This document shows, piece by piece, positions 881 to 47,722 of a DNA stretch of 64,000 bases; within the stretch, counting starts at the first letter, position 1, and each line of letters begins with the position of its first letter. The stretch comes from Pyropia yezoensis (Eukaryota; Rhodophyta; Bangiophyceae; Bangiales; Bangiaceae). Position numbers and translations under genes: made by a program. Below the pieces are notes generated by a model. The model saw only the letters and a list, made by a program, of their open reading frames with translations, was not told the DNA's origin and did not search any database. The DNA lies in the NCBI GenBank assembly GCA_009829735.1, contig CM020620.1, positions 22,604,020-22,668,019 of the forward strand, in the 5' to 3' direction.

Positions 881-973
881 GTGGCCGGTTCCTGGCCAAG
901 TCGCCAGACCAAGTCAACTCGTGGACATTGGGTGTCGGCGCTGACGCGTTCAGCGTCCCTCCTCCATTCAAGC

Positions 974-5400: not shown

Positions 5401-8040
5401 CGGCAGCCGCCTGCTGCCGGCGGCACCGTTCGCGTTTTTCGGTCGGCGCCTGTATTTTTGGGCGCCGCCCCACCGCCGCGAGCAGCCCGCCCCTGTCGGC
5501 GGCACGGTCTTCCTGTGGGGGGCGGCGCCAATCTACGTTGAGCGCCGCCCCCCCGCCGCCGGCAGCCGCCTGCTGCCAGCGGCGCCGTCTCCCTCTTTTC
5601 GGCGGCGCCTGTGTTTTTTGGGCGCCGCTCCCCCGCCGCCAGAAGCCCCCCCCTGTCAGCGGCACGGTCTTCCTGTGGGGGGCGGTGCCCATCTACGCTT
5701 GGCGCCGCCCCCCCGCCGCCGGCAGCCGCTTGCTGGCGGCGGCATCGTCTGCCTTTTTTGGGCGGCGCCTGTGCGTTTTGGGCGCCGCCTCCCCGCGGCC
5801 AGCAGCCCCCCCCTGTCGGCGGCACGGTCTTCCTGTTGGGGGCGGCGCCCATACAGGTTTGGCGCCGCCCTTCCGCCGCCGGGAGCCGCCCCGGTTTGGG
5901 GCGGCGCCCATCTACGTCTGGGGCCGCTCCCCTGCCGCCGGCAGCGGCCTGCAGACGGCGGGGCCGTCTCTCTCTTTTGGGCGGCGCCTGTGTTTTTTGG
6001 GCGCCGCCCCCCCGCCGCCGGCAGCCCCTTCCTGTTGGTGGCGCGGTTTTCCTGTGGGGGGCGGTGCGCATCTACGCTTTGCGCCGCCCCCCTGCCACCA
6101 GCAGCCGCCTGCTGCCGGCGGCATCGTCTGCCTTTTTTGGGCGGCGCCTGTGTTTTTTGGGCGCCGCCCCCCCGCCGCCAGCAGCACCCCCCTGTCAGCG
6201 GCACGGTCTTCCTGTTGGGGACGGTGCCCATACAGGTTTGGCGCCGCCCTTCCGCCGCCGGGAGCCGCCCCGGTTTGGGGCGGCGCCCATCTACGTCTGG
6301 GGCCGCTCCCCTGCCGCCGGCAGCGGCCTGCAGCCGGCGGGGCCGTCTCTCTCTTTTGGGCGGCGCCTGTGTTTTTTGGGCGTCGCCCCCCCGCCGCCGG
6401 CAGCCCCTTCCTGTTGGTGCCGCGGTCTTCCTGTGGGGGGCGGTGCCCATCTACGCTTTGCGCCGGCCCCCTGCCACCGGCAGCCGCCTGCTGCCGGCGG
6501 CATCGTCTGCCTTTTTTGGGCGGCGCCTGTGTTTTTTGAACGCCGCCCCCCCGCCGCCAGCAGCCCCCCCCTGTCAGCGGCACGGTCTTCCTGTGGGGGG
6601 CGGTGCTCATTTACGTTTGGCGCCACTTCCCTGCCGCTGGCAGGCGCCTGCTGCCGGGGGCATCGTCGGCGACTTGTGGGCGGCGCCTGTGTTTTTTGGG
6701 CGCCGCCCCCCCGCCGCCCGCAGCCCCCCCCTGTCGGAGGCCCGGTCTTTTTGCGGGTGGCGGCGCCAATGTACGCCTGGCGACGCCCCCCCGCCGTGGC
6801 GCCAATGTACGCTTGGCGCCGCCCCCCCGCCGCCGGCAGCCGCCTGCTGCCGGCGGCATCGTCTGCCTTTTTTGGGCGGCGCCTGTGTTTTTTTGGCGCC
6901 GCCCCCCCGCCGCCCGCAGCCCCCCCCTGTCGGCGGCGCGGTCTTTTTGTTGGGGGCGGCGCCAATCTGCGCTTGGCGCCGCCCATCCGCCGCCGGCAGC
7001 CGCCTGCTGCTGGCGGCGCCGTCTGCCTTTTTCTGTCGGCGCCTGTGTTTTTTGGGCGCCGCCCCCCCGCCGCCCGCAGCCCCCCCCTGTCGGCGGCCCG
7101 GTCTTTTTGCGGGGGGCGGCGCCAATGTATATTTGGCGCCGCCCCTTCGCCGCTGGCAGCCGCCTGCTGCCGGCGGCATCGTCTGCATTTTTTTGGGCGG
7201 CGCCTGTGTTTTTTGGGCGCCGCCCCCCCGCCGCCCGCAGCCCCCCCCTGTCGGCGGCGCGGTCTTTTTGTTGGGGGCGGCGCCAATCTGCGCTTGGCGC
7301 CGCCCATCCGCCGCCGGCAGCCGCCTGCTGCTGGCGGCGCCGTTTGCCATTTCTGTCGGCGCCTGTGTTTTTTGGGCGCCGCCCCCCCCCCGCCCGCAGC
7401 CCCCCCCTGTCGGCGGCCCGGTCTTTTTGCGGGGGGCGGCGCCAATGTATATTTGGCGCCGCCCCTTCGCCGCTGGCAGCCGCCTGCTGCCGGCGGCATC
7501 GTCTGCATTTTTTTGGGCGGCGCCTGTGTGCTTTGGGCGCCGCCCCTCCGCCGCCGGCAGCCGCCTGGAGCGGGCGGCGCCGTCAAGCTGTTTTGGGCGG
7601 GACCTGTGCTTTTTGGGCGCCGCCCCCCCGCCGCCAACTGCCCCTCCCTGTCGGCGGCACGGTCTTCCTGTTGGGGGCGGCGCCCATACAGGTTTGGCGC
7701 CGCCCCCCCGCCCCCGGCAGCCGCCCCCCGTCAGCGGCGCCGTCTCTCTTCTTTCGGCGGCTCCTGGGCTTTTTGGGCGCCGCCCCCTCGCCGCCAGCAG
7801 CCCCCTTCTGTCGGCGGCACGGTCTTCCTGTTGGGGGCGGCGCCCATACAGGTTTGGCGGCGCCCCCCCGCGGCCGGCAGCCGCCTGCCGCCGGCAGCGC
7901 CGTCTCTCTCTTTTGGGCGGCGCCTTTTTTTGGCGCCGCCCCCCCGCCGCCGGCAGCCCCTTCCTGTTGGTGGCGCGGTCTTCCTGTGGGGGGCGGTGCC
8001 CATCTACGCTTGGCGCCGCCCCCCCGCGACCGCTAGCCTC
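2440..8040. repeat. ~160-bp hairpin-dense GC-rich satellite array
   Basis: About 34 tandem copies of a ~160-bp unit. Each unit holds three near-perfect inverted repeats: arms GGGCGGCGCC/GGCGCCGCCC around an 11-nt T-rich loop (TGTGTTTTTTG type); arms GGGGGCGGCGCC/GGCGCCGCCCCC around an 11-nt loop (CATCTACGTTT type); and arms CCGCCGGCAGC/GCTGCCGGCGG around a 5-nt loop. Each GGCGCC core recurs roughly every 80 bp, so the unit is really two related ~80-bp halves. Divergence between copies is mostly point changes and small indels. Open frames up to 1,553 codons exist here in all six frames only because the sequence is almost free of A/T-rich stop codons; I regard none of them as genes. Confidence 0.9.
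4780..6210. repeat. Higher-order duplication inside the satellite (858-bp period)
   Basis: A block near 4790-5350 recurs at about 5650-6210 with an exact offset of 858 bp. Matching landmarks are CATCTACGCTTGG at 4832 and 5690, and the unusual GGTTTGGGGCGGCGCC junction at 5036 and 5894. A third, partial copy starts near 6219. A separate local duplication with a ~320-bp period (two 160-bp units) is seen between 6960 and 7460. This is a higher-order repeat structure such as unequal crossing-over produces. Confidence 0.8.
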
Positions 8041-14082: not shown

Positions 14083-14472
14083 TTGTCAAAAACCTCTAAA
14101 GGTAACGCATGGCTACCATGTCCAAACCATCCATGTCATGTTTTTTTTTTCAACGCGTGATACATAAACAAAAGGAACGCACAATACAGAGTATCAGCAA
14201 CTCGAATGTGGGTCGGCGGCGTGGGTCCGGGACACGAATTGTCCGGATCACGCCCCCCGACCCACGATTGGCATCCCATAACTGGCTATGTACCCCTGCA
14301 TACTGACGTCAAAAACCGGTATGGCCTGGCCGTCAGATGCGCTCAAGTGTGCCCGTGACAGGCTGCGCGCAGTTGTATTTGAGTAAGGACCGATATCGTA
14401 CCCGTCCGACACAGCCTTAGAGCATAACCACCGGCCGTTCCCCATTCCCCAACACTAGCCACGTGTACAAAT

Positions 14473-15044
14473 TGTAGCATCCCTGGCCCCGACTTGGCGC
14501 CGACCCGGGACTGCAACCAGAGGGCACCAGGTGCCAGAACACGCCCGCCGTGTGGCGATGGTTGGCGGCCGTGGCCCGTGCCCGGCACTGGGATGCGGTG
14601 GACTACGCTATCCACACGCGAGAGAGGGATTTCTGATGTGTTTTTGCATATTTGTGAGGGACTTGATTTGAGAGAATTTGAGTGTGAGATTAGTGAGTGG
14701 GAATAGAATTAGTAGTGATAGTGGCCCCCGACCTGACGAGGTTAGACTCGGGTCGGGGCCACTCGGGGTTATGGGGGGGCTACCGGGCCAACGTGCCGGG
14801 GTTCCCCCAGATGCACGTTAAGAGGGACAGCGAGGCGCCCTCGGCCCGCGCCCTCAGGGAAAAAGACAACTGCGCGTTTGCTTTCCTCTTCCCCGTGTGC
14901 ACTACCGTGCGTATCTGTTTGCCCTGCAAGCAGGCACGTGAGGCAACAGGCATACCATTCTCGTAGTTCCCCTTTCTGCGTTACCTGTCCCTTTCCCCCG
15001 AGGGATATTGACACGTGTCTGAGAGGATCGAGTTTTATACCACA
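14473..15044 (+). repeat. 5' LTR of E1 (572 bp)
   Basis: Begins TGTAGCATCC and ends TTTTATACCACA. It contains an imperfect stem-loop at 14720-14763 (arms AGTGGCCCCCGACC and GGTCGGGGCCACT, one bulged base) that could lie in the transcript leader. Direct copy at 23552-24123. Confidence 0.95.
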
Positions 15045-15048
15045 TATT

Positions 15049-15066
15049 TGGTGGAGCAGCAGGGGA
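15049..15066 (+). promoter_or_regulatory. Primer binding site of E1
   Basis: TGGTGGAGCAGCAGGGGA starts four bases after the 5' LTR. The initial TGG matches the CCA tail of a tRNA. The same 18 bases are found at the equivalent place in E2. A matching tRNA would have an acceptor strand starting GGAGCAG; I did not identify which tRNA that is. Confidence 0.8.
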
Positions 15067-15253
15067 TTGGAGTGTTTGAGAAGAGACATTTGGGAGCAGC
15101 GGTTGCGTTGTTCCTATTCTGTCTTTTTCTGTGGTTTGGGAATTATTTGCACCCGTTCACGGGAACCCCATTCCTGGCTCTCCAACCCCTCTCTTGTGGT
15201 CTTGCGATCTTTGGACACGCAGGTAACTGGACTGTGGCTGTCAAGAGACCAAC

Positions 15254-17014
15254 ATGGCTACCCTCCCTGGCACGACGGTGCCCGAAGGGGTAGACCCCGC
15301 GTCCCTTGACGCATCCCTGGTCACCGCGGGGGACGGTGCCCAACCCGGCGTTCTCCCTACGGGTGAAGCAGACCTGGGCGTGACATCCGGTAGTGGACTG
15401 GAGTCTACAGGCGGCCAAGTACCGCCTGCTCCCGTTCCTCCGGCTGTTCCTCCTGTGGGAGCCACCCCGGGGTCAACGGCGTTTGAGTCCGCTCGCAGCA
15501 GACGTCTCCCTCCTGTCGGTTCTACTCTTCAACCTCCAGGGATAGCCCCTGGTGTGTTTACTCCTGGACCCACACATGGCAGCTGGGTGTATACACCTCT
15601 TCCTGTGGGCACTGGCAGTGCCAGAGGCACCGCTATGACTGGTTCTACGGGTCTTCCTGAGACTTCGACTCCTGGGACCGGCCAAGCTTTTCCTCCCCTT
15701 GCGTCCTATGGGGCGGGGAGCTCCAAGACCGGTGACCGGAGCAGCCGTAGGCGTCGGCGTCGTCGCCGCCGTTCTAGCACCAGCGAGACCAGTTCCTCCA
15801 GCTCTGAGGAGGGATATGACTGGGATGCATCTCCCGGTCCTACCCGGCGCAGGCTAGTCGAGTTCGACTTCCCTGCCCACCAAGTGGGAGATGCCACCCT
15901 GAACAAGGTCACGTATTGGGGTAACTACCGGCTGGAGAACCAAGACCAAGGTTACACCCGGAAGATGGCCAAGAAGATGGCATCCCTGAACCGGCGAATG
16001 CAGCCGAGCTTTGGGGGACATCCTAAGTTTTCCGGGAAGAGACCGGCGCTTATCTTTGCCTTCCTGCGCCGGTTTGTCAAGGCATGCAATGACAACGATG
16101 TGTCCGAGGGCAAGGCTCTCTATCTCCTGGTTAACTTCATGACCGGAGAAGCGGAACAGCGGTTTGCACAGGTTCTACCAGACTCTGCCGGGCACATTGT
16201 TGGACGTACCGTCGCGAGTTATCCGGAAGCGGTCAACTGGCTCCTGTCCAACTACGCAGACGCGGACTCCCTGCGTAAGGCAGTCGGTAGGCTGAACCGG
16301 GCAACCATGGAGAGACAAGAGACTCCAGAGGCGTTCGCCCGTCGTGTCCGGGAGATGAGCGATGCTTGTGGCAACGTTTACCCTGAGGACAGGCTCAAGA
16401 TGATCTTCTCGGAGGGGCTTCCTGAATATCTTCAAGTGGATGCGGAGAACTACAACCAGGAACATCAAGAACATACCTTCCAGCAGTTGATGGCCTACAC
16501 CCAGGGCAAGCACCGGCAAGCCAAGGCCCTCCAGGCTCCTATGGTATCAACCCCCAAGCCGTTGTCGCGAGTTCGTCCCGGACCCGACAAGTATAAGGGA
16601 GGTGATAACCCTGTACCGGTACTCGCAGTTGGCGAGGCCTCACCCATGGAGTCAAGGGACAAGTGGGGCGGCTTCGTTTCTAAGGAGCAACCTTCCCTGG
16701 TCGCCCCCAAGCAGATCAGGAACCAGCGGTTCCGGTCTTGCTGGCTGTGCCAGAAGGAGGATCATATGTCCTACCAGTGCCCGACCATTCCCGAGGATCT
16801 CCAGGAGAAACTCAAGCGTCAAGGACTGGTGTTTGCAAAGGCGGTCAACTGGGCTGACCGGCGGGCACCCTCCAAGATGGACAAGGCACAGGTACATGCC
16901 ATCCGAGTGGCAACCTTACAGAGCATCACGGAGGCTCTGGCAAGGGAAGCTCCTACGGACTTTGACCTGGAGACCGAAACCTCTAAGGACTCCTCGGAGC
17001 CGGGAAACGAGTAG
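15254..17014 (+). CDS. gag: E1 Gag polyprotein
   Basis: 586 residues from a true ATG at 15254. It would form the virus-like particle and bind element RNA. The N-terminal ~170 residues are Pro/Gly/Thr-rich with an Arg block (RSSRRRRRRRRRSS) followed by a Ser-rich stretch. The retrotransposon Gag (capsid) domain spans roughly residues 250-420, with the typical AFLRRFVKACND ... EQRFAQVLPDS ... NWLLSNYAD pattern. A CCHC zinc knuckle CWLCQKEDHMSYQC (CX2CX4HX4C) lies near residues 497-510. The C-terminus is acidic and ends in GNE before TAG. The slippery heptamer at 17002-17008 overlaps the last codons, so a fraction of ribosomes should continue into pol. Confidence 0.93.
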   Translation: MATLPGTTVPEGVDPASLDASLVTAGDGAQPGVLPTGEADLGVTSGSGLESTGGQVPPAPVPPAVPPVGATPGSTAFESARSRRLPPVGSTLQPPGIAPGVFTPGPTHGSWVYTPLPVGTGSARGTAMTGSTGLPETSTPGTGQAFPPLASYGAGSSKTGDRSSRRRRRRRRRSSTSETSSSSSEEGYDWDASPGPTRRRLVEFDFPAHQVGDATLNKVTYWGNYRLENQDQGYTRKMAKKMASLNRRMQPSFGGHPKFSGKRPALIFAFLRRFVKACNDNDVSEGKALYLLVNFMTGEAEQRFAQVLPDSAGHIVGRTVASYPEAVNWLLSNYADADSLRKAVGRLNRATMERQETPEAFARRVREMSDACGNVYPEDRLKMIFSEGLPEYLQVDAENYNQEHQEHTFQQLMAYTQGKHRQAKALQAPMVSTPKPLSRVRPGPDKYKGGDNPVPVLAVGEASPMESRDKWGGFVSKEQPSLVAPKQIRNQRFRSCWLCQKEDHMSYQCPTIPEDLQEKLKRQGLVFAKAVNWADRRAPSKMDKAQVHAIRVATLQSITEALAREAPTDFDLETETSKDSSEPGNE

Positions 17015-20000
17015 GGCAGGCGCTCTCCCCAAGTGTCTTCCCGAATCTCCAACGGCAGGGTACTTCTACCTGTTCTCCCCTTGCGTGCCGGGAGAAAGGA
17101 CGGCAGTTACCTGCTCAACCGGTAGCCGCCTGGACACCCTGTTTGTTCAAGGGGACCTTGCTCGTCCTGCGTAAGGAAAACCTCAAGATTAATGCTCGTA
17201 TGCGTGTGGGGGATAGTCTCCCCCAAGCTGTTACGCCGGTGGTCGACACGGGAGCCGGACCAAGCGTCATCACTGAGAACCTGTTACCTCCGGGCTGGCG
17301 TCGACATGCCTGGAGAGCGCCTACCAAGACCCGGATTGTAGACGCATCAGGTCAAACCCTACGACCGCTTGGCCGTCTTCCCGTCGCCATCTATGTCAAC
17401 AATGAACCAATGCTTTTTCCCTTTCTAGTAGTCAAGACCTTATCAGTCCCCCTCATCCTAGGCTGGGACTTCCAGAAGCAGCATGTCAAGAGCATCCTAC
17501 CCGGAGAAGGAAAGGTGCAGTTCAACCATGGGTTTGTGTCACCAGTGCTGGAGCACCTGGACACCAAGTTTCGTGTGGCCAAGAACCAGAAGGAACGCAT
17601 CCCACCCTCTACCTTGACCCTCATCAAACCGGTGCTCCTACCTCCTCGCTCGGAGACCAAGGTTCAAGTCACGACCCGGACTGCAGGTCAATGCCTGATC
17701 TACGGACGCAAGGAATTTCTGGCGAAACACCGATTATACCTAGCCCACGGACACCACAAGAAGGTGGAGAGGCACACCCCGTTCTCGGTGCTGATCGTCA
17801 ACGTGAGCCGGAAGCCAATAACCCTCGCCAAGGGCACTCGAGTTGGTACAGCAGAGCCTTACCGGGGGTCCGCCCGCGCTATGAGCAAGGAAGACCTCTT
17901 CAACCTGCAACAAGAGCTGGCATCCAACTTGACGGCCTTAAACGTATCTCCGGAACAAGAGCAGGCTGGCCGTACTACTCCGAAGCCCGAACAAGCACCG
18001 CCCGGGATGCCGAAGGTCAACCAAGAAAACGTCCCTCTCGACTTGAAGGAGGCACTGGAGAAGCTTCTCCAGGAACATCGGCACCTGTGGTCCGGAGAGC
18101 TGGGCAAGATGGACGCCACCCTACACCGGATTCAACTCAAGCCAGATGCCAAACCAGTGCACATGCACCCATACCGGGCTGGACCTCATCGCCGGGATGA
18201 GATTGAGAAGCAGGTTAACAAGATGCTCAAGATGGATGTTATCGAGCCGTCTGATGGCGAGTGGGCTTTCCCGGTGGTAGTCGTCCCGAAACCTGGCGGT
18301 CACTTCCGTTTCTGCGTTGACTACAGACGCCTGAACGAGATGACAGTCAAGGATGTATACCCGATACCCCGGATGGATGATTGCCTCGACTTTCTTGGTG
18401 ATGCCACCCTCTTCTCGACGCTGGATTGTAATGCCGGTTACTGGCAGATCCCTCTGGCTGACGAGGACAAGGACAAGACTACCTTCACGTGCCACATGGG
18501 ACTGTTCCGGTGCAAGCGTCTCCCTTTTGGTCTCACTAATGCTCCGGCAACCTTCCAGAGAGCCATCGACATCATCCTGTCGGGGCTAAGGTGGAGAACA
18601 TGTTTGGTCTACCTGGACGACATCATTGTTTTCTCCAAGACCCCAGCGGAACACCTGGAGCACCTTCGAGAGGTCCTGGCCCTCCTGTCCAAGGCTGGAG
18701 TTACCCTCAAGGCCGAGAAGTGCCACCTGTTTGAGACTGAGGTGGAGTACCTGGGGCACGTGCTGAGTCCGGGGGAGCTCCGAGTCAATGAGAAGAACAT
18801 CAAGGCCCTCCGGCATGCACGGCAACCTAAAACCCAGACGGAACTCAAGAGCTTCCTGGGTATGTGCAACGTCTACCGCCGGTTCGTACGAGACTACGCT
18901 CTGATTGCCCGGCCCTTGACCAAGCTTACTAGCAAGAAGCTTCCAGCACAACTCCCGGTGTTCGACGAGAAGCAGACAGCAGCCTTCGAAGAGCTCAAGA
19001 AGCGCCTGACCACCACTCCAGTACTGGCGTTACCCAAGCGGGAGGGTCAGTTTGTTCTGGAGACTGATGCCTGTGGCGTCCAGGTGGGGTGCTCACTACT
19101 CCAGCAGCAACCTGATGGGCACTTCCTCCCGATAGGCTACTACAGTCGCGTCTTGACTCCAGCCGAGAAGAACTATTCGACGACCGAGCGCGAGTGCTTG
19201 GCGGTCGTCTGGGCTTGCTTCCTGTTACGTCCATATCTTGAAGGACAAGAGTTCCTCATCCGGACGGACCACGCCAGTCTAAGGTGGCTGCTATGCATGG
19301 ACAGCAGTCAAGGAAGGGTCGCCCGGTGGCGCCTACGCCTTTCGGAGTTCAAGTACAAGGTGTGCACCAGAGCAGGGAGGGAGCACCACTGCGCCGACAC
19401 CATGTCCCGGCTGGAGACTCCTGCAGCCGATACCGGTCCTATCCCGGAGGAAATACCTTGCTTCATCCTCCCGAATGTCGGACGTGGCTGGCACGCTCCC
19501 CTGTACGAGACACCTGACGCTCATCAACCGGTAACCATTCACCGGATGCTGGAGGCACAATTGACGGACCCTCAATGCTTGGAGCTTCGCCACCAAATGG
19601 ACCTGAACCGGAACAGTCGCTTCTCCGAGTCTACAGACGGACTCCTGGTACGGGTGTCACCCTTCGATGGGGCAACTCAAGTCTACGTACCCCGGAGCCT
19701 ACGGACTGACATCCTACGCCTGGAGCACTCGTCTCCCCAGGCCGGGCATCCTGGTATCAATCGGATGTATGCTTCCATGAGACGACATTATTACTGGGAA
19801 ACCATGGCCAGTGACGTCCATAAGTGCCTGGAGGCTTGTATTTCTTGTGCAAGGAACCGGTTGTCCCAGAGGAAGAAGACTTCTAAGCTACGCCTATTCC
19901 CTGCGGCGGAGCCCTTTGCAAGCTTAAGCATGGACATCCTGGGGCCCCTACCTGAGACCTCCAGTGGCAACATATACCTGCTCATCATTTGTGACCGGTT

Positions 20001-21102
20001 CTCCAAGTTCACTCGAGCAATCCCGTTGAGAACCATCACGGCTCTGGATGTCACGTCGGCCTTCTGCGAGTACTGGATAGCTGCCTACGGCCCTCCAGAC
20101 TCCGTCTTAACCGACAACGGTCCCCAGTTTGCATCCCTGTTCTTCCAAGGAGTCTGTGACCTGATGGGCATCAAGAACTTGTACACCACGACGTACCACC
20201 CTCAAACGAACGGCCAGGTGGAACGATTCAACCGGACCCTAGTGGACATGCTACGGCACTACGTGGAGGAGCACCAAGAAGACTGGGACGAGCTACTGGC
20301 TGTCCTCACTCTAGCCTACAACTCCCGAGTTCACCGGACAACGGGAGTCGCTCCCCTCGACTTTGTCACCCCGAGGCGGCTGACCAACTTCTCCCTGGAA
20401 AGAATACCGGATGGTCTCCAGCCTGCACTGAAGTCAGGTCCCAAGGCAAAGGATGAGTTCCTGGAACAACTAAAGCTCCTGCTCCCAAGAGTCAAGGAGT
20501 CAATTTCAAAGACCCAGGAGCGATACAAGCGGGACTATGACAAGGGTGTCCGGGAAAAGAACAAGGAACTGGGTGGTGGCGACTGGGTTTTTGTGGACAA
20601 CCATAGCAAGACCCGGGGGAAGCTGGACTCTAAGACGGATGGACCTTATGAGATTCTCAATACGGATGGCTGGACCTTCCTTCTAGACGTGGATGGCTCT
20701 CCGTACCGGGTGAGCAGCGACCATGTCACCCGAGCTCCACCGCCAAGCCAACGGGACTTGACCCGGCGTAAGCGGACTGCGATACCCTGGCTATCCCAAG
20801 AAGAAGGTCGGGAATTTGTCTACGTCAAGTTTGTCGACCATGCCTGGAGAGATGGACGCCTGTACCTGCGAGTACGCTGGTTCGGTTTCAACCCGGCAGA
20901 TGATACCTGGGAACCCTCAAACCGGCTACCCATCGCGGACGTCTGTGCCTACACGCGACGGAACGGGATTGAGGGCACTCCCGTGGCCAGAGCCGGCAAG
21001 ATTCTGGAGTCGGACACGGAGGAGGACCAAGAGGACGGGGCCAACCAAGACCCTCGGGACGAGACGAGCTCACCCGCAACGGATGCGGAACAAGAGGATT
21101 GA
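16987..21102 (+). CDS. pol: E1 Pol polyprotein (PR-RT-RH-IN-chromodomain)
   Basis: Open frame of about 1,370 codons in the -1 frame relative to gag. The first ATG is at 17200, but synthesis as a Gag-Pol fusion by frameshifting at 17002 is more likely. Domains in order: aspartic protease (VVDTGAGPSVI, about 17236-17268); reverse transcriptase (FCVDYRRLNEMT, PFGLTNAPATFQ, and YLDD at 18610-18621); RNase H (LETDACGVQVGC, TERECLAVVWA); integrase with an HHCC zinc domain (HPGINRMY ... CISCARN) and the catalytic triad in SMDILGP, LTDNGPQF and NGQVERFNRTL; and a C-terminal chromodomain (FVYVKFVDHAW ... LRVRWFGFNPADDTWE, about 20815-20960), which in chromoviruses can steer integration to particular chromatin. 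No internal stop or frameshift. Confidence 0.95.
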   Translation, partial: GLLGAGKRVGQALSPSVFPNLQRQGTSTCSPLACREKGRQLPAQPVAAWTPCLFKGTLLVLRKENLKINARMRVGDSLPQAVTPVVDTGAGPSVITENLLPPGWRRHAWRAPTKTRIVDASGQTLRPLGRLPVAIYVNNEPMLFPFLVVKTLSVPLILGWDFQKQHVKSILPGEGKVQFNHGFVSPVLEHLDTKFRVAKNQKERIPPSTLTLIKPVLLPPRSETKVQVTTRTAGQCLIYGRKEFLAKHRLYLAHGHHKKVERHTPFSVLIVNVSRKPITLAKGTRVGTAEPYRGSARAMSKEDLFNLQQELASNLTALNVSPEQEQAGRTTPKPEQAPPGMPKVNQENVPLDLKEALEKLLQEHRHLWSGELGKMDATLHRIQLKPDAKPVHMHPYRAGPHRRDEIEKQVNKMLKMDVIEPSDGEWAFPVVVVPKPGGHFRFCVDYRRLNEMTVKDVYPIPRMDDCLDFLGDATLFSTLDCNAGYWQIPLADEDKDKTTFTCHMGLFRCKRLPFGLTNAPATFQRAIDIILSGLRWRTCLVYLDDIIVFSKTPAEHLEHLREVLALLSKAGVTLKAEKCHLFETEVEYLGHVLSPGELRVNEKNIKALRHARQPKTQTELKSFLGMCNVYRRFVRDYALIARPLTKLTSKKLPAQLPVFDEKQTAAFEELKKRLTTTPVLALPKREGQFVLETDACGVQVGCSLLQQQPDGHFLPIGYYSRVLTPAEKNYSTTERECLAVVWACFLLRPYLEGQEFLIRTDHASLRWLLCMDSSQGRVARWRLRLSEFKYKVCTRAGREHHCADTMSRLETPAADTGPIPEEIPCFILPNVGRGWHAPLYETPDAHQPVTIHRMLEAQLTDPQCLELRHQMDLNRNSRFSESTDGLLVRVSPFDGATQVYVPRSLRTDILRLEHSSPQAGHPGINRMYASMRRHYYWETMASDVHKCLEACISCARNRLSQRKKTSKLRLFPAAEPFASLSMDILGPLPETSSGNIYLLIICDRFSKFTRAIPLRTITALDVTSAFCEYWIAAYGPPDSVLTDNGPQFASLFFQGVCDLMGIKNLYTTTYHPQTNGQVERFNRTLVDMLRHYVEEHQEDWDELLAVLTLAYNSRVHRTTGVAPLDFVTPRRLTNFSLERIPDGLQPALKSGPKAKDEFLEQLKLLLPRVKESISKTQERYKRDYDKGVREKNKELGGGDWVFVDNHSKTRGKLDSKTDGPYEILNTDGWTFLLDVDGSPYRVSSDHVTRAPPPSQRDLTRRKRTAIPWLSQEEGREFVYVKFVDHAWRDGRLYLRVRWFGFNPADDTWEPSNRLPIADVCAYTRRNGIEGTPVARAGKILESDTEEDQEDGANQDPRDETSSPATDAEQED
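17002..17008 (+). promoter_or_regulatory. Canonical -1 ribosomal frameshift heptamer GGGAAAC
   Basis: The zero-frame codons read CCG GGA AAC GAG TAG, so the heptamer is G GGA AAC in exact X XXY YYZ register, six bases before the gag stop. The -1 frame is the pol frame, open from 16987 (after a TAA at 16984-16986) to 21102. Slipping here therefore joins Gag to Pol directly. A 7-bp hairpin (TTCTCCC/GGGAGAA, about 17073-17096) and a possible GGGCAGG/CCTGTTC pairing lie downstream and could stimulate slipping; these structures are guesses. Confidence 0.85.
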
Positions 21103-21247
21103 GAAGAAGGGAACGGGTATATCAAGGAGAACACGCAATGCAAGCATGGAACAATCAAGGAAACCAAGCACCCGCTCGAGCAACCCTTCTCTCCGCCTCT
21201 TCCCTCCTCGCTTCTCCCAAGACCCTCACCCTCCTTGCCTCCAACTA

Positions 21248-23365
21248 CTACTCTCGGCGCGGACGCTGAGCCGCGGGAGTGTCCTCCGGCGCTACCTCCG
21301 CGGTACGACGGGAACCGGAGGAAGACGGGATGACGTAGTGCGGTGGACGCGGCGCATCCCGGTATGACGCCATCGGAGTAGTACCAGTAGTTGCCGGTGG
21401 CTCCCGCTCATCCAGATATGTCCGTCGGCGCCGCTGGAAGCCCGTGAAGGTCTCTGACCACTGCTGGGCCAGGCCATGCCGCGTCAAAGTCGCCAGAAGT
21501 TCGCCAACCACCGGGTTGTTCGACATCTGGCCGCTGTCCGCGCAAGCAAACACCCGGTCGACCACGTCGTTCAAGACACTGGCGTAAGTGCCCAGCACCA
21601 GGGAGGACCCGACGCCTTCAACCTGCACCGGAAGACGACCCAGCTGGTCTTCAATCATGCCGACGTCGTACTGGTCGCATGTTGGACCACCCTGGTTCAG
21701 GTACCAGTCAGGCACCCGGAAGCGGGTAAGGCGCAGAGTCGGCGCCGGAATCTCGAACCGGCCCGAGGATGACACTACCGGACGGTCCACAACGGCCCCC
21801 GAGACCGGAGTGCCCAACTCCAGCGGAGGCACAGCGCCGCCGGCGTTGGAAGAAGGCGTCCGGGGTAGAGCGGCCGGAGTAATCGGCGACCGCACGGCCA
21901 CTCCCAGACTCGCCGCAGACAAGCGCGGTGCCGGAGGAGCTTGAAGTACCGGCACAGCAGGAACAGGGCGCGGACGCGCCGGTGACGGTTCAGGCGAGGC
22001 AACCGGGGCGACAGGGGCAACAGGAGGAAGCGGAGCCGCCGCAGACGCCCGACCGACCGCCGCGGCCCATCCCGACTCCTGCACCGGCGGCCCAACTGGC
22101 AGAAGATCAAGGGCGGCCGGAGCAGGAAAGCTACCTAGCTGCGGCCACGCCGGAAGCGGCGTCGCCAGCTGCACCTTGGCCGGAGAAGACTGGTAGACCA
22201 CCTGCGCCCAACCGAAGCCATCCCGACGCGGGCGGTTCTGGTCGGCAATCGCGTTCAAGAAGTTCCGGTCATGCACCGGTACCAGACGCCGGAAGTCGAT
22301 CATCGCCTGGAAGAGCTCCTTGTACTCCTCGTCCTGGCTGCACAGGAAGTCGACGGTCAACTTGTCGACAATCCAGACCATCAGGAGGTCAGGGAGAAAC
22401 CAAAGCCGGTTGGACACCAAGACCTCGTGAAGCCAGTGGTTGGCCGCCAAGACTGTCATCTCGGACGTGTACATCATGTACGGGATTGAATGGAAGAAGC
22501 CCTTGATCGACGCCTGAGTCAAGGCGTCCAAGAAGTACCAGGTGCAAGGGATGCTGGAAGGAGCAAACCCGACCGGGATCTCGACTTCCTGCTGCTGCGG
22601 GATGACCTTGGGGTAGTATGCCGCCCGGTTAGCCTTGTCCAGCTTCCAGAACTCCTGGTGGTTGCAGCTCACAAGGAAGTCACGCTGACGCCCGCGTCGC
22701 TCACCCTGCTCCCGTGCCGGCGACAACTTGGAGTATTTCCGGGTCAAGAAAGGCGGCTCCAGAGCGACCATGCTCGGACGGGGGTCGCAGTTCAAGCTTC
22801 CCGACCCCTTGAGCGCCTCGTCCCAGACCTTGAGCGCCCGGTGCACGTACTCTTCCTCCTCCGGCCACCGGAGAACGGACGCGGACACGCGACGCTCGGT
22901 CAAGGGTAGATCCAGTACCAGCGCGAAGGGGAGATCCTCCAGACGAGCAACCCAAGAGGAACCCGAGAAGCTCTGGGAGCGGTCTTGTGCCAGGCGCATC
23001 TGGTCCGCCGTATGAAGACGTGCCTTGTCCATCTCGGTCAAGACCCCGCGCTGGAGTTCCTTGCGCCAGAGGTCCATGCAATCCTGCTGGCACTGGGCCG
23101 CGCCGGCGTTGCCAACCACCGTGGAGTAACGCCGGGCCGCCAGAGGGTCCTGCCCAAGGAGCATCTCCGGGAGACCCTCCGGGGGGGCCTCGACCGGGTG
23201 CATCGTGGACGCCGGGGGAACTCGATCCGTCCCCGCCGTGGCGACCGGCGCCGGCACCGACATCCGAGGAACCGGAGGCAGGAGAGGGGCACGACGACCC
23301 GAGTTCTCCTCCGCAACACTCGCCGCCGGAACCACGGGCCCAGCTTGGATCTCGGAACTGGACAT
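21248..23365 (-). CDS. E1 antisense ORF (705 aa), conserved in E2, function unknown
   Basis: Runs opposite to gag-pol, between the pol stop (146 bases away, tail to tail) and the 3' LTR, starting at a true ATG at 23365. The codon choice and residue mix (DMYLVN-type balanced regions flanked by Pro-rich linkers) look like a real protein. It has a Pro/Ala-rich N-terminus, a folded-looking core of about residues 110-390 (with FLVSCNHQEFW, then YYPK, seven residues, VEIPVGF, then LAANHWLHEV and LWFLPDLL), a long Pro/Ala/Val linker, a second compact part (FRVPDWYLNQGGPTCDQYDVG ... region) and an Arg-rich tail. The E2 ORF at 39623-41566 shares the core motifs with identical YYPK-to-VE spacing. I recognise no known domain. 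Expression would need a promoter in or near the 3' LTR reading inward on the minus strand. Confidence 0.8.
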   Translation of the reverse strand: MSSSEIQAGPVVPAASVAEENSGRRAPLLPPVPRMSVPAPVATAGTDRVPPASTMHPVEAPPEGLPEMLLGQDPLAARRYSTVVGNAGAAQCQQDCMDLWRKELQRGVLTEMDKARLHTADQMRLAQDRSQSFSGSSWVARLEDLPFALVLDLPLTERRVSASVLRWPEEEEYVHRALKVWDEALKGSGSLNCDPRPSMVALEPPFLTRKYSKLSPAREQGERRGRQRDFLVSCNHQEFWKLDKANRAAYYPKVIPQQQEVEIPVGFAPSSIPCTWYFLDALTQASIKGFFHSIPYMMYTSEMTVLAANHWLHEVLVSNRLWFLPDLLMVWIVDKLTVDFLCSQDEEYKELFQAMIDFRRLVPVHDRNFLNAIADQNRPRRDGFGWAQVVYQSSPAKVQLATPLPAWPQLGSFPAPAALDLLPVGPPVQESGWAAAVGRASAAAPLPPVAPVAPVASPEPSPARPRPVPAVPVLQAPPAPRLSAASLGVAVRSPITPAALPRTPSSNAGGAVPPLELGTPVSGAVVDRPVVSSSGRFEIPAPTLRLTRFRVPDWYLNQGGPTCDQYDVGMIEDQLGRLPVQVEGVGSSLVLGTYASVLNDVVDRVFACADSGQMSNNPVVGELLATLTRHGLAQQWSETFTGFQRRRRTYLDEREPPATTGTTPMASYRDAPRPPHYVIPSSSGSRRTAEVAPEDTPAAQRPRRE

Positions 23366-23535
23366 ACCGTCCAGACTCCGGGGAACGAGAGGGCCAAGGT
23401 GAAGGAGCGGAGGGGGGGGGGGGCAGAATCGGGGCAGGTGATCGTGACCGGGTGAAGACGCTCGACCTCGGCACCGGTGTGGACGTGCTCGAGGCTGTGC
23501 ACGGTGGCACCTGGTTCGGCCCGAGGACGTGCCGG

Positions 23536-23551
23536 ACTAGGGAGGGAGCTA
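23536..23551 (+). promoter_or_regulatory. Polypurine tract of E1 (weak)
   Basis: ACTAGGGAGGGAGCTA directly precedes the 3' LTR. The purine core AGGGAGGGAG is the best candidate for the plus-strand primer; it is shorter than usual and is followed by CTA. Confidence 0.5.
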
Positions 23552-24123
23552 TGTAGCATCCCTGGCCCCGACTTGGCGCCGACCCGGGACTGCAACCAGA
23601 GGGCACCAGGTGCCAGAACACGCCCGCCGTGTGGCGATGGTTGGCGGCCGTGGCCCGTGCCCGGCACTGGGATGCGGTGGACTACGCTATCCACACGCGA
23701 GAGAGGGATTTCTGATGTGTTTTTGCATATTTGTGAGGGACTTGATTTGAGAGAATTTGAGTGTGAGATTAGTGAGTGGGAATAGAATTAGTAGTGATAG
23801 TGGCCCCCGACCTGACGAGGTTAGACTCGGGTCGGGGCCACTCGGGGTTATGGGGGGGCTACCGGGCCAACGTGCCGGGGTTCCCCCAGATGCACGTTAA
23901 GAGGGACAGCGAGGCGCCCTCGGCCCGCGCCCTCAGGGAAAAAGACAACTGCGCGTTTGCTTTCCTCTTCCCCGTGTGCACTACCGTGCGTATCTGTTTG
24001 CCCTGCAAGCAGGCACGTGAGGCAACAGGCATACCATTCTCGTAGTTCCCCTTTCTGCGTTACCTGTCCCTTTCCCCCGAGGGATATTGACACGTGTCTG
24101 AGAGGATCGAGTTTTATACCACA
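23552..24123 (+). repeat. 3' LTR of E1 (572 bp)
   Basis: Same length as the 5' LTR and without visible differences from it. Followed by the CAAAT target duplication at 24124-24128. Confidence 0.95.
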
Positions 24124-24128
24124 CAAAT

Positions 24129-33560: not shown

Positions 33561-33565
33561 GGCCC

Positions 33566-33771
33566 TGTTGTGATGCAAACGTAAGCGCGTTGCCTCTTTC
33601 TTCCTCGGACCAAGCGGTCCCTCGCCGCGCCCCTAAAGGGCCACACTCACTCGCCTAAATCCCGACCAAATCTCCCCGCCATTGGTCCGATCGCGGGGCT
33701 AAACAAATTGCCCGTGGACACGCTGTCCCACGGCGGGGTCACCAGGGCCGTACAGACCGTACCCCACAACA
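33566..33771 (-). repeat. E3 LTR (3' in element orientation)
   Basis: 206 bp, bounded by the inverted pentamer TGTTG/CAACA. On the minus strand it is preceded by the purine stretch complementary to 33772-33780 (GTGGGGGAG), the likely polypurine tract. Confidence 0.95.
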
Positions 33772-33780
33772 CTCCCCCAC
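33772..33780 (-). promoter_or_regulatory. Polypurine tract of E3
   Basis: Reads GTGGGGGAG on the minus strand, directly next to the 3' LTR. Confidence 0.65.
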
Positions 33781-33801
33781 GGCCATGGAGGCCACGCCCC
33801 T

Positions 33802-36800
33802 TCACCCGCGTGCGGGGCTAGCCACCGCCACCCCCAATCCCTCGCGGAAGAGGTTGAACGCGTCCCGAGGTAGCGGCTTGGTGAAGCCATCCGCCAGTTG
33901 CTCCTCGGAACGCACGTAGACGATCGCCACCTGCTGCTGCGCCACGCAGTCGCGGATGAAGTGGTAGCAGACGTCCACGTGCTTGGTGCGGGAGCTCATC
34001 CCCTCGTTGGTCGCCATTGAGATGCACGCCTGGTTGTCCTCCTTGAGGGTGACCGGCCCGGCGTACTCCCCCAGATCGCCCGCCAAGCGCCGAAGCCAGA
34101 GGCTGTCCTTGGTCGCCTCCGCCGCGGCCACGTACTCGGCGGTCGCCGTAGAGGTGGCCACGAGCCGCTGCATGCGGCTGCGCCACGAGATGGCGCCGCC
34201 GTGCAGCGTAAACACAAAGCCCGTCGTCGACTTGCGGCTCTCGGTGTCTCCCGCAAAGTCGGAGTCCACCCACCCCTCGAGCGGGGCCTCCTTGCCGTAC
34301 TTGATGCCCATGTCGCGGGTCCCCTGCAGGTACCGCAGCACACCCTTGGCAGCCCGCCAGTCACCCTCGGTGGGCGCCGACATCCGGCGCGCCAGCTTGC
34401 CGACGGCGTAGGCCAGGTCCGGCCGCGTCTGGTTGCTCAGGTACATGAGCGACCCGACCAACTCGGCAAAGTGGTTGTCCACCGGCAGGGCATTCCCCTT
34501 ACCCAGCACGACGCCGCGCGCCATGGGGGTGTAGTTCGGCTTGCTCTCGTCCATGTCGTAGTCCTTGAGCAGGTCTGCCGTATGGCGGGGGTTGGACAGT
34601 GTCACCGACCCCGCCGCCTTGTCCCAGACGACCTGCATCCCCAGGAACGAGCTCACCTCCCCCATGTCCCGGCACTCAAAGTGGCGTGCAATACGGCCCT
34701 TGACGTCTGCCACAGCGTCTGGGTCGGGGCCACCTGAGAGAATATCGTCCACGTGCACGTTCACGTAGACCGTCGTCCCCTTGACAGTGAAGAGGTAGAG
34801 GCACTTGTCCGCCTTGGACTGCACGCCCCCCTCCTCGGTGAGCTTCCCATGCAGGTGCTTGCCCCACAGGTTGCCCGCCTGCTTGGTGCCGTACATGGCG
34901 AACCCCAGCAAGGCGTCCTCCCCAGCGTCATCAAAGCCCTCGGGGATGACAATGTAGACCTCGACGTCCATCGGCGCGTAGAGGTACGCCGTCTTGACGT
35001 CAAGGAGGTGGACCGTCCAGCCACGCACGGCCGCCGTCGCCAGGAACGCCCGCGTCGTGGCCGCCGCGGGCATCGCGGCCCACGACTCCAAGTAGTCCAT
35101 GCCAGGCTTCTGGCGGTTGCCCTTGCCCACCAGCCGGCACTTGCGCCGCACCAGCACACCCCTCTGGTCGGCCTTGTACTCGAAGATGACCCTGGTACCC
35201 AGCCGGCGCGCGCCCCGCGGCGCCTTCTTTTTCGTCCACACCTTGTGGCCGACCATCGACTTCCGCTCCGCGTTGAGCGCTACCTCCCATAGGGGCCAGT
35301 CCTCCCGGCTGCGGGCCTCCTCCACCGTCTTCGGCGGGGGCGGTAGGTCACGCACCATCACCGGCTCCTTGGCGGGCTCCGTTGGCTGGACCGCCGCGGC
35401 GCTGGCCGAGGCGCCGGCCTCGTCTTGCCCAAACCGCATCGGCGGCAAGCGCGCGCGACCCGGATACCGGGTCACCGCGTCCTCCTCGCCCTCGGTCACC
35501 GCGTCCTCCTCGCCCTCCGAGGAGGTCCCGCCCTCGTCCTCGGCCAGCTGGCCCGTCACAAGCCTTGCGGCGTCGATAGCCGCTTGCACATCCGGGGTCA
35601 CGGGGGCCCCCCGCCCACTACCCCCTGAGCTTGTAGACGACGAGGGAGTGAGGGTTGGCGTGGGATGCGGCGTATGCGTCGGTGTAACCACGGGCCCGCT
35701 GCCGTCATCCCCCGCGGTGGTGTCCGACAGGGCCTGGCTCCAGTGGACGCCCTTGGTGGGGGTACTCTGCTCAGCCTCATCCACCACCACGTCCCGGCGC
35801 TCGACGACCTCGTTAGAGCCGTCGAGCAGCAGACGGAAGCCATTGCCGCCCGCCGTGTACCCCACCATCCGGCCGGCACTCGTGCGCGGCTGCATGCCCT
35901 TGATCTTCTTGGGCGGCTTGAGGGCGTACGCGCGGCTGCCCCAAACCGCGAACCCCGACACATCGGGACGCTTGCTGGTGAACGCCTCCCAGGGGGTGAC
36001 GTCCTTCCCCTCCTTGGGCGACCGGTTCATCACGTAGATGGCCGCCACGGCCGCCTCGGCCCACAACTGCTCGTCGAGGCCCGAGTCGGACAACGCCGCG
36101 CGGACGCGCTCCTTGATCGTCCGGTTGACCCGCTCCGCCTTCCCATTGCTCTGGGGACTGTAGGGGAGGGTGACCTCGTAGTCAATGCCCTTCTCTGCGT
36201 ACCAGCTCCGCAGCTTGGCCGTCGCGAACTCCTTGGCACCGTCAAAGCGGATCCGCTTCAGCTTCTTGCCGCAGCGGCGCTCCATCTCGGGGATCCGCCA
36301 CTTGATCACCTTTCCCGCCTCACTCTTGGCGCGGATGGGCACACCCACCGTCATGCCGGTGCTGTCCTCGTAAAGGACCAGCAGGTAGCGCGCCCCCGAC
36401 GGCGACTTCTTGAACGGGCCCGTAATGTCCACGTGGATGAGCTCCATGACGTCCGTCTTGGAGTCGGACGTGGGGAAGGGTGCCTTGACCGTTTTGCACT
36501 CGACGCAGGGCCGGCAGATGGCACCTGCCACCGGCTCAGGCTCCACGTCCTTCTCGGGCAGGCCGATGACCATCTTTGCCACGCGCCGCAGGTTGGTGTA
36601 GCCGAGGTGGAAGAACCGACGGTGCCAGACAGAGGCCGTGCCGAGCATGGGTGCGGAGACCATCATCGCCACCTTAGCCGTTGGCGTCCCACCCAGCATG
36701 TACTGCCCGTTCCCCTCCAGTTTACCGATGGCGTCCGCCTTGGACACCACGCCGCGGGAAACGACCGTCTTGGCCGCGTCAAAGATGTAGCAGTGCCCCT

Positions 36801-38040
36801 CGGCAAACAGCACCGCCCCGCCGGCCTTGTCTACCAGCCCCACCGACATCAGATTCTCCCGCAGACCCGGGACGCGGTAGGTGTTCTTGAGCGTGATGGT
36901 CGACAGGTTGTCGCCGCTGCCAGCCACGAGGACCGCCTCGCCGAGGCCGGTGGTCGCAAGGGTGTCTCCCGACGCCAACGTCACCTCGTCGTTGGTCTTG
37001 GCCGCCTTGGCCAGGAACAACCCCTTGCCTGTAGCAAGGTGGTGGGTCGCACCCGAGTCGACCACCCACTTGTCTGCGCGCGAGGCATTGGCGACGGGCG
37101 ACGCGACGCCCTCGCCGACAGTGGCACAGTAGGCCATCCTCTTGCCGCCCCCGTCGCCCCCCTTGTCCCCGTCCTGGGGGTTCTTGCCACCTCGGCCGCG
37201 CTTCTCGTCCGCGGCCCGCCGCTTGTTACAGTCGGCGATCTTGTGGCCGGGCTTCTTGCAGTAGAAGCACACCATCTTCTTGTCCGGGCGCCCCTTCTTC
37301 TCATCCTTCTTGAGCGCCATCGCCGCCAGGTAGGCCTGCACCGCCTGCGGCACGTCGTCATCCGACTCTGCACGCAGCTCCGTCTCCGTCTCCATCAGCC
37401 TGTTGGTGATGGTGGGCAAGGTGAGCAACTTTCCAGAGTTCCGCAACACCGTGCGGATGGTCTTGAAGGACGTAGGCAGGCCGCGGAGGATGTCCAGGCA
37501 CAGGCTGTGCTCATCCTTGGTCACGCCCGCGGTCGCCAGGTCGTCGCGGATCCCCTTGGTCCGCCCGACGTACTCGATGATCGTCTCGTTGGGCTGCTTG
37601 CGCAGCGTCGCCAACGCCTCCTCCAGCTCCCCCCGACGCGTGGCCGTCTCATCGTCGAAGAGGACGCGGAGGCACTCCCACGCCTCCGCCGCCGTCTTGC
37701 AGCCGGCGATCATGTTCATGAGGTGTGGCTTGACCGCCATCTTGATCTGCGCCAAGGCCCGCACGTTCTTGCGCTTCCAGACCTTGACCTCCTTGAGCTG
37801 CTTCTCGTGCAGCTCCAGGGCCTGCTTCTGGGCGGCGGCGTGGGCGGCCGCCGTCCCCGCCGGCTCCCCCTCGGGCGGCGTCGTAGCCGCCGCCAGGGGG
37901 GTGACAACAAGGCACGGCGTCTCGATCGCGTCCCAGGTGCCGTTGTCCTGCAGGTACGCCTCGGCGTAGTTCGACCAGCCGCGGTAGTTGCCGTCCAACA
38001 GGTCGTAGCCAAACTTGGAGCTCCTCGCCTCGTCCTCCAT
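33802..38040 (-). CDS. gag-pol: E3 copia Gag-Pol polyprotein
   Basis: 1,412 residues from a true ATG at 38040 (the frame is open a little further upstream). Domains in order: Gag of the copia type (about residues 20-230); CCHC knuckle CFYCKKPGHKIADC; aspartic protease WVVDSGATHHL; GAG pre-integrase zinc motif (HRRFFHLGYTNLRR); integrase core (HVDITGP, FDGAKEFA, SPQSNGKAERVNRTI); reverse transcriptase (DVKTAYLYAPMD, and VHVDD in place of YVDD); RNase H (DSDFAGDTESRKSTTG, STATAEYVAAAEA, EDNQACISMA, TKHVDVCYHFI). The length is typical of Ty1/copia, and no stop or frameshift interrupts it. Gag and Pol are in one frame, so the Gag:Pol ratio must be set in some other way, for example by splicing or processing. 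Confidence 0.95.
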   Translation of the reverse strand: MEDEARSSKFGYDLLDGNYRGWSNYAEAYLQDNGTWDAIETPCLVVTPLAAATTPPEGEPAGTAAAHAAAQKQALELHEKQLKEVKVWKRKNVRALAQIKMAVKPHLMNMIAGCKTAAEAWECLRVLFDDETATRRGELEEALATLRKQPNETIIEYVGRTKGIRDDLATAGVTKDEHSLCLDILRGLPTSFKTIRTVLRNSGKLLTLPTITNRLMETETELRAESDDDVPQAVQAYLAAMALKKDEKKGRPDKKMVCFYCKKPGHKIADCNKRRAADEKRGRGGKNPQDGDKGGDGGGKRMAYCATVGEGVASPVANASRADKWVVDSGATHHLATGKGLFLAKAAKTNDEVTLASGDTLATTGLGEAVLVAGSGDNLSTITLKNTYRVPGLRENLMSVGLVDKAGGAVLFAEGHCYIFDAAKTVVSRGVVSKADAIGKLEGNGQYMLGGTPTAKVAMMVSAPMLGTASVWHRRFFHLGYTNLRRVAKMVIGLPEKDVEPEPVAGAICRPCVECKTVKAPFPTSDSKTDVMELIHVDITGPFKKSPSGARYLLVLYEDSTGMTVGVPIRAKSEAGKVIKWRIPEMERRCGKKLKRIRFDGAKEFATAKLRSWYAEKGIDYEVTLPYSPQSNGKAERVNRTIKERVRAALSDSGLDEQLWAEAAVAAIYVMNRSPKEGKDVTPWEAFTSKRPDVSGFAVWGSRAYALKPPKKIKGMQPRTSAGRMVGYTAGGNGFRLLLDGSNEVVERRDVVVDEAEQSTPTKGVHWSQALSDTTAGDDGSGPVVTPTHTPHPTPTLTPSSSTSSGGSGRGAPVTPDVQAAIDAARLVTGQLAEDEGGTSSEGEEDAVTEGEEDAVTRYPGRARLPPMRFGQDEAGASASAAAVQPTEPAKEPVMVRDLPPPPKTVEEARSREDWPLWEVALNAERKSMVGHKVWTKKKAPRGARRLGTRVIFEYKADQRGVLVRRKCRLVGKGNRQKPGMDYLESWAAMPAAATTRAFLATAAVRGWTVHLLDVKTAYLYAPMDVEVYIVIPEGFDDAGEDALLGFAMYGTKQAGNLWGKHLHGKLTEEGGVQSKADKCLYLFTVKGTTVYVNVHVDDILSGGPDPDAVADVKGRIARHFECRDMGEVSSFLGMQVVWDKAAGSVTLSNPRHTADLLKDYDMDESKPNYTPMARGVVLGKGNALPVDNHFAELVGSLMYLSNQTRPDLAYAVGKLARRMSAPTEGDWRAAKGVLRYLQGTRDMGIKYGKEAPLEGWVDSDFAGDTESRKSTTGFVFTLHGGAISWRSRMQRLVATSTATAEYVAAAEATKDSLWLRRLAGDLGEYAGPVTLKEDNQACISMATNEGMSSRTKHVDVCYHFIRDCVAQQQVAIVYVRSEEQLADGFTKPLPRDAFNLFREGLGVAVASPARG

Positions 38041-38190
38041 GGTTAAGGGAGCGACGCGGAAGGTCCCCACGGGTCACACGTCCGCACCGATCTAGCCCCC
38101 CGTCTGGGGGGGAATGCGCCGCCTCCGCCACCACGTGGGTCTTTCACCGACGAGGCTCCTGGAGACAGATGACACGATCCCAGCGACGAG

Positions 38191-38204
38191 CTGGGCCCAT
38201 AACC
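38191..38204 (-). promoter_or_regulatory. E3 primer binding site matching the initiator tRNA-Met anticodon arm
   Basis: The plus strand reads CTGGGCCCATAACC directly next to the 5' LTR, which is the anticodon arm (CAU anticodon) of eukaryotic initiator tRNA-Met; with the preceding base G it matches 15 bases. The element RNA therefore carries GGTTATGGGCCCAG with no spacer after the LTR. This is the arrangement known for Drosophila copia and yeast Ty5, which prime from a cleaved 5' half of initiator tRNA-Met rather than from a tRNA 3' end. Confidence 0.8.
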
Positions 38205-38410
38205 TGTTGTGATGCAAACGTAAGCGCGTTGCCTCTTTCTTCCTCGGACCAAGCGGTCCCTCGCCGCGCCCCTAAAGGGCCACACTCACTCGCCTAAATC
38301 CCGACCAAATCTCCCCGCCATTGGTCCGATCGCGGGGCTAAACAAATTGCCCGTGGACACGCTGTCCCACGGCGGGGTCACCAGGGCCGTACAGACCGTA
38401 CCCCACAACA
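38205..38410 (-). repeat. E3 LTR (5' in element orientation)
   Basis: 206 bp and the same as the copy at 33566-33771 as far as can be seen by eye. Followed by the GGCCC duplication. Confidence 0.95.
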
Positions 38411-38415
38411 GGCCC

Positions 38416-39283: not shown

Positions 39284-39297
39284 CTCCCCTCTCCTCA
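39284..39297 (-). promoter_or_regulatory. Polypurine tract of E2
   Basis: Reads GAGGAGAGGGGAG on the minus strand, directly next to the 3' LTR; a good polypurine tract. Confidence 0.75.
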
Positions 39298-41566: not shown

Positions 41567-41677
41567 TTGGCTGCTGCCTTTTTTGTGAGAGTGTGAGGGT
41601 TAGGGCTGTAGTTAAAAGCCACTCTGCGTACCACTTCGTCTTGAAGCACTCTCTTGGCACTGTTGCTCGGCCTTCCC

Positions 41678-47720: not shown

Positions 47721-47722
47721 AA

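Follow-up and report, generated by a model that had tools for sequence, protein, structure and literature searches.

Two Ty3/gypsy Elements Carry a Long Antisense Open Reading Frame

The window, a stretch of 64,000 nucleotides from the red alga Pyropia yezoensis analyzed here, contains two LTR retrotransposons, E1 (14473–24123, forward strand) and E2 (38816–48191, reverse strand). Their LTRs, the order reverse transcriptase (RT) - RNase H - integrase in pol and, for E1, a target duplication place both in the Ty3/gypsy group. In E1, the 5′ LTR of 572 bp (14473–15044) and the 3′ LTR (23552–24123) are 100% identical and are bordered by the 5-bp target duplication CAAAT (14468–14472 and 24124–24128). 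The forward strand encodes a gag-like ORF with a weak CCHC knuckle (15254–17014) and a pol ORF (17143–21102) covering protease, RT, RNase H, integrase and a sub-threshold chromodomain. On the reverse strand, the segment that separates pol from the 3′ LTR holds an ORF of 705 codons plus stop (21248–23365), in the following termed aORF. Its stop lies 145 nt from the pol end and its ATG is separated from the LTR by a leader of 186 nt (23366–23551, reverse strand), which contains the sense-strand polypurine tract.

E2 is read from the reverse strand and has a 5′ LTR (47724–48191) and a 3′ LTR of 468 bp (38816–39283) that are 98.5% identical, a gag ORF with a CCHC knuckle (45657–47627) and a pol region (41678–45660) with RT, RNase H, integrase and a sub-threshold chromodomain. 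The latter is interrupted by one frame change and one in-frame stop and is present as three ORFs (41678–43054, 43082–43981, and 43900–45660). The E2 aORF of 647 codons plus stop is encoded on the forward strand (39623–41566), with a leader of 339 nt between the 3′ LTR and its ATG (39284–39622, forward strand) and 111 nt between its stop and the pol end. An additional LTR of the E2 family (49820–50290), which is 96–97% identical to the E2 LTRs, has no partner copy in the window.

The ORF coordinates confirmed the original prediction of a long opposite-strand ORF tail to tail with pol in both elements. The predicted size of 705 codons was correct for E1, but the 648 codons given for E2 had included the stop. 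The ORF had also been said to end at the 3′ LTR; it does lie next to this LTR, but begins there and ends near pol. As further pointed out, the E2 aORF is open beside a broken pol, but the E2 copy is so young that this is little proof.

The C-terminal part of the integrase matched the chromodomain PF00385 with scores below the Pfam cut-off of 25.1 bits in both elements (E1, 20.3 bits, E 5e-4; E2, 21.1 bits, E 3e-4), and on the basis of these weak matches E1 and E2 may be chromovirus-like. Although their LTRs are unrelated, E1 (15047–15066) and E2 (47703–47722) share the stretch TTTGGTGGAGCAGCAGGGGA after the 5′ LTR, which is likely to be the primer binding site. In both E1 (15254–21102) and E2 (41678–47627), gag and pol are located in different frames, with an overlap of the two genes in E2, and synthesis of Gag-Pol therefore needs a frameshift or a separate start. 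Other features of the window are a Copia element (33564–38417, reverse strand) with 215-bp LTRs of 99% identity and one gag-pol ORF of 1422 aa (RVT_2), a very GC-rich tandem array with an 80-bp unit (2386 to about 8000), ORFs for DNA transposases of the DDE_3 type with a weak HTH (881–2062, forward strand) and of the Plant_tran type (PF04827; 25011–26597, forward strand), and host-like ORFs with an FKBP_C domain (60152–61432, forward strand) or part of the beta-lactamase-fold domain PF00144 (57229–58863, reverse strand).

The Antisense ORFs Share a Homologous Core

The longest stop-free run in the aORF region comprised 762 codons in E1 and 724 codons in E2 and was longer than in any of 2000 dinucleotide shuffles of either region, for which the maxima were 571 and 453 codons, respectively. 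The codon usage of gag-pol matched the aORF frame best of all six frames in both elements. When the two aORF proteins were compared, BLASTP aligned 202 aa with 26% identity (E 2e-9) and hhalign gave an E value of 2e-5 at a probability of 76%. The Smith-Waterman score of the core was 111 compared to 33.6 ± 5.1 for shuffles. The proteins thus align far better than shuffled sequences, in accordance with the predicted conservation between E1 and E2.

Among the 36 possible frame pairs of the two regions, the antisense frame pair scored 138 (200 shuffles: mean 56.5, maximum 81). One sense frame pair scored higher (160), yet its shuffles averaged 166. Five of the 36 pairs were shuffle-tested (200 each), and of these the aORF pair alone exceeded all its shuffles. 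The N- and C-terminal parts of the aORF taken alone showed no E1–E2 similarity above shuffles, so that homology is established for the core only. In E2, this core, which is common to E1 and E3 (see below), covers residues 175–425 of P0002 (39974–40726, forward strand).

Most of the sequence motifs noticed earlier were found in both proteins. YYPK, followed by exactly seven residues and VE(I/V)PxGF, is located at 22565–22618 (reverse strand) in E1, as YYPK-7-VEIPVGF, and from 40238 in E2; PP(F/Y)L and LWxLPxxL were also correct. The motif LAxxWLxEV is present in E2 (LATQWLLEV), but E1 has one extra residue before the tryptophan (LAANHWLHEV).

The E1–E2 identity was 29.5% for gag, 43.8% and 47.7% for two pieces of pol, and 32.1% for the aORF core. 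At identical degenerate residues, the same codon was used in 20 of 48 cases in the aORF core (19.6 expected at silent-site saturation), in 44 of 150 cases in gag (47.2 expected), and in 75 of 220 and 134 of 340 cases in the two pol pieces (76.7 and 124.7 expected). Judged from these codon counts, the similarity of the aORF proteins has outlived silent-site similarity, just like that of Gag and Pol.

The aORF Is Present in at Least Three Families and Has a Conserved Start

A search of the genome (107.48 Mb) with the aORF proteins revealed the aORF in at least three families, E1, the E2 type, and E3, which was found in this analysis. All 63 matches scored for the E1 protein were stop-free and had 98–100% identity; because only the best candidates were scored, this set is biased toward young copies. 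For the E2 type, 74 of the 76 best-scoring matches were open, and for E3 more than 100 matches were scored. The E1 set was derived from 48 loci, of which 36 that matched over 690 residues or more were retained and 12 dropped; internal stops, which occurred in 10 of the 36, were skipped. The matched stretch had a length of exactly 2115 nt in 30 of the 36. The pol end was located beside the aORF in 47 of the 48 E1-type loci, and an E1-type LTR was found in 40 of them. In E3, the aORF was tail to tail with pol in three of three loci inspected for the pol end. Place and orientation assign the aORF to the antisense accessory ORFs that lie between pol and 3′ LTR (aORF-3R).

The E1 leader contains poly-C runs that differ in length among copies, which rules out its being read in frame with the aORF. 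In 19 E1-type copies these runs shift the frame before the ATG, but the ATG was kept in 19 of 19 and was followed by the N-terminus MSSS in 18 copies and MSRS in one. A kept ATG behind a frame-shifting leader shows that the E1 aORF starts with the ATG at 23365, and the longer stop-free frames that extend into the LTR are leader rather than aORF. The sequence CCTTCACCTT, which is common to the E1 and E2 leaders, was present in L065 and missing in L063, L064, and L067, and is probably a chance occurrence.

The LTRs of the E1-type loci L002–L039 are about 95–100% identical to those of E1. As the dS of their aORFs to E1 reaches 0.32, the LTRs vary less than the silent sites. At L025, L028, and L037, E1-type elements adjoin the pol of other gypsy families, an arrangement that suggests nested insertion; an E2-type aORF was found on the far side in two of these three cases (L065 and L067, not L066).

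The Antisense Protein Is Under Purifying Selection

Across 36 E1-type copies, summed dN divided by summed dS was 0.26 for the aORF (612 of 630 pairs with dS between 0.02 and 1); this value, like those below, derives from Nei-Gojobori counts without a codon model, from non-independent pairs and from a best-scoring sample of copies. In comparisons of E1 with L003–L009, 3 nonsynonymous changes stood against 22–26 synonymous ones. For 13 copies hand-picked from the 36, one of which (L014) carries a stop, the aORF frame also gave 0.26, with pairwise values of 0.04–0.83 and only one of the 78 pairs reaching up to 0.83, and four other frames gave 1.17–1.70. Random placement of the E1 changes led to a mean ratio of 0.79–0.87 (five pairs, 200 runs each). 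The E2 aORF showed a dN/dS of 0.20–0.37 in four copies and the E3 aORF, counted from its ATG, one of 0.28–0.39; with sequence upstream of the ATG added, the E3 value came to 0.54–0.61.

A low ratio (0.31 in E1) was also obtained for the sense frame whose third positions coincide with those of the aORF. It contained 7 to 22 stops in eight of eight sequences across the three families, and its ratio was above that of the aORF frame in the pooled E1 data, in four of four E2 pairs, and in three of three E3 pairs. With the exception of this frame, the ratios of the other frames ranged from 0.84 to 3.64 for the families taken together.

Constraint was unevenly distributed along the E1 aORF, with ratios of 0.56, 0.13, 0.08, 0.21, 0.38, 0.21, and 0.36 in successive windows of 100 codons. 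Codons 1–100 were the least constrained, and the strongest constraint was found for codons 101–400 (22166–23065, reverse strand), which contain the core common to E2 and E3. In nine of the 13 copies with a usable gag, dN/dS was 0.240 for gag and 0.246 for the aORF, and both dN and dS were higher in the aORF (0.040 and 0.161) than in gag (0.025 and 0.105); stops were present in two of the nine gags and in none of the nine aORFs. The end of pol is under tighter constraint (0.14 compared to 0.25 for the aORF in 11 of the 13 copies). The aORF ratios are far below 1 in all three families and, in the nine E1-type copies compared, equal to the gag value. They show that the aORF protein is under selection, as the original prediction had suggested, and that each of the three families has a coding gene on its antisense strand that is maintained by purifying selection.

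The aORF Protein Has No Match to Searched Protein Families

In Pfam, no match up to an E value of 1 was obtained for the E1, E2, and E3 aORF proteins, and neither a PHROG family nor a credible relative by sequence in the PDB was found. TRP28 / Transposase_28 (PF04195) gave no match in these three proteins or in seven aligned members; in a whole-genome search with PF04195 the controls were silent, which makes this search uninformative. A PHD finger or a chromodomain, as in ORF3p of the REM1 element, was not detected by Pfam, and hhalign revealed no relation to gag or pol that would indicate an origin from these genes. By sequence, the aORF protein thus appears to lack a match to the known families and known antisense proteins searched.

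A hydropathy analysis revealed no transmembrane segment (highest 19-residue values 1.54 for E1, 1.28 for E2, and 1.24 for P0008). An Env-like protein was rejected for this reason; an env gene would moreover be expected on the other strand. Several other candidates were discarded: Rieske matches (E 0.005 to 0.43) fall in the Pro/Ala-rich linker, an HFI1 match (E 0.12) was not significant, and PF18577 in one of the seven members (E 0.0085) was taken as chance. The same applies to a 47-residue match in L001, the one locus obtained from scans of viral contigs, where the neighboring ORFs (4000–6500, inspected by eye) contain no retroelement. AlphaFold models were unusable (mean pLDDT 27.2 and 35.6). 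The C-terminus is strongly arginine-rich in E2 and contains a single RRRR in E1; in E3, a basic C-terminus was not evident by eye and arginines are located in the linker.

Comparison with Antisense ORFs of Other LTR Elements

Some plant gypsy elements had been stated to carry antisense ORFs in the interval from pol to the 3′ LTR, which is borne out by published descriptions (PMC11963269, PMC7264820). In Retand, the antisense ORF encodes TRP28 and is present in 97% of clusters; that study describes Retand as absent from plants other than flowering plants (PMC11963269). Retand and the algal elements are alike in that the segment from pol to the 3′ LTR holds a long antisense ORF, kept in most recently active elements, and a DNA-related function is suspected for TRP28, as it may be by analogy for the aORF (PMC11963269). 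They differ in that Retand is a non-chromovirus of flowering plants with PF04195 and a pol–3′ LTR region of 2.9–6.6 kb (PMC11963269), whereas the elements studied here reside in a red alga and have a chromodomain-like integrase C-terminus, no TRP28 match and a region of 2.4 kb. At the same place, antisense ORFs are described for Grande (GENE23), RIRE2, PvRetro13, and the fungal element Boty, and GENE23 is reported to be nuclear and transcribed from its own promoter (PMC7264820). The aORF resembles these ORFs in place.

In the alga Chlamydomonas, the Ty3/gypsy element REM1 likewise has a reverse-oriented ORF that follows the one for the polyprotein. Its ORF3p carries PHD and chromodomains. A 2009 paper describes the REM1 reverse ORF as a truncated, reversed part of integrase (PMC2774666). 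In contrast to REM1, pol of the elements studied here retains the integrase, and the aORF has no match to such domains. An analogy may also be drawn to HBZ of HTLV-1, a separate regulatory protein whose minus-strand gene lies close to the 3′ LTR, but that element is unrelated and its antisense promoter in the 3′ LTR is known, whereas such a promoter is only inferred for the aORF.

Among the matches listed in a search of titles and abstract beginnings of open-access papers, none described an antisense gene in red-algal LTR elements. A 2012 survey of red algae, Porphyra yezoensis among them, reported no chromodomain of retrotransposon type (PMC3350952). This kind of gene is known from plants, and the red-algal host and the protein family appear to be new. 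The presence of three families in one genome provides a direct test of selection on the protein, with the frame-shifting changes before the ATG additionally locating the protein start. Confirmation at the RNA level would extend the range of antisense accessory genes to red algae and add a protein outside the known families.

Possible Function of the Antisense Gene

We consider it probable that the aORF is the third gene of a Ty3/gypsy group in P. yezoensis, expressed from a separate minus-strand mRNA and encoding a nuclear accessory regulator. The mRNA would start in the 3′ LTR or in the adjoining short leader and give rise to the aORF protein. With less certainty, this protein might act in trans within the nucleus, where the DNA, RNA or chromatin of the element itself would be its target and the helix-rich core with its flanking disordered Pro/Ala-rich segments the presumed acting part. 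The nuclear regulatory role is our best guess and draws on the nuclear location of GENE23, the analogy to HBZ, and the arginine-rich C-terminus, which is uneven across the families. As genomic RNA and aORF mRNA would converge over about 2 kb, use of either promoter would dampen the other, and convergent transcription could thereby serve as a simple switch between replication and regulation. More tentatively, and with somewhat less than even confidence, the third gene might be an ancient, standard and invariably antisense component of red-algal chromovirus-like elements, of a family unrelated to the known ones and with an origin separate from the antisense genes of flowering plants and green algae, which controls the element's own expression or silencing via convergent transcription. 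Antisense accessory genes would then represent a solution that has evolved repeatedly in LTR elements.

VANC proteins remove host repression for VANDAL DNA transposons, and the aORF protein might similarly be an anti-silencing factor that frees its own copies of repression. As would be anticipated for elements evading silencing, the families are numerous (at least 63, at least 76, and more than 100 scored matches) and young, but no domain or motif supports this role and we regard it as unlikely. It is rather improbable that the protein, instead of regulating expression, belongs to the particle in a structural or replication role, as a co-factor of Gag or the preintegration complex: it is as constrained as Gag in the copies compared, but it is unrelated to gag and pol by hhalign, and a minus-strand mRNA would be an odd supply route for a particle protein. 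In Ty1, p22 limits copy number by interfering with Gag assembly. Expression apart from gag-pol could permit dosage control by such a limiter acting in trans, but the aORF, unlike p22, is not gag-derived and the families have reached high copy numbers, which leaves little probability for this function.

We also give small weight to the idea that the aORF is a very diverged relative of TRP28, GENE23 or REM1 ORF3p, all descending from one ancient antisense gene. Place and orientation are alike, but the protein searches in Pfam and with PF04195 described above were negative and TRP28 is reported from flowering plants only. In another reading, the antisense RNA alone would matter, through dsRNA or interference, and its coding capacity would be a side effect; a review considers this for antisense ORFs of plants (PMC7264820). 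The low dN/dS in three families and the conserved residues at saturated silent sites refute this as the sole explanation and make it very improbable, though RNA effects may exist beside the protein. That the ORF reflects the base composition of GC-rich DNA, or shadows a coding frame on the sense strand, might be suggested by the high GC content and the low ratio of the frame sharing third positions, but is refuted by the shuffle, stop and ratio tests and has next to no probability.

The genome of P. yezoensis comprises three chromosomes of 43.6, 34.3, and 29.4 Mbp, and LTR elements predominate among its repeats (PMC7423979). This small, LTR-rich genome makes the function of the aORF testable in P. 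yezoensis itself.
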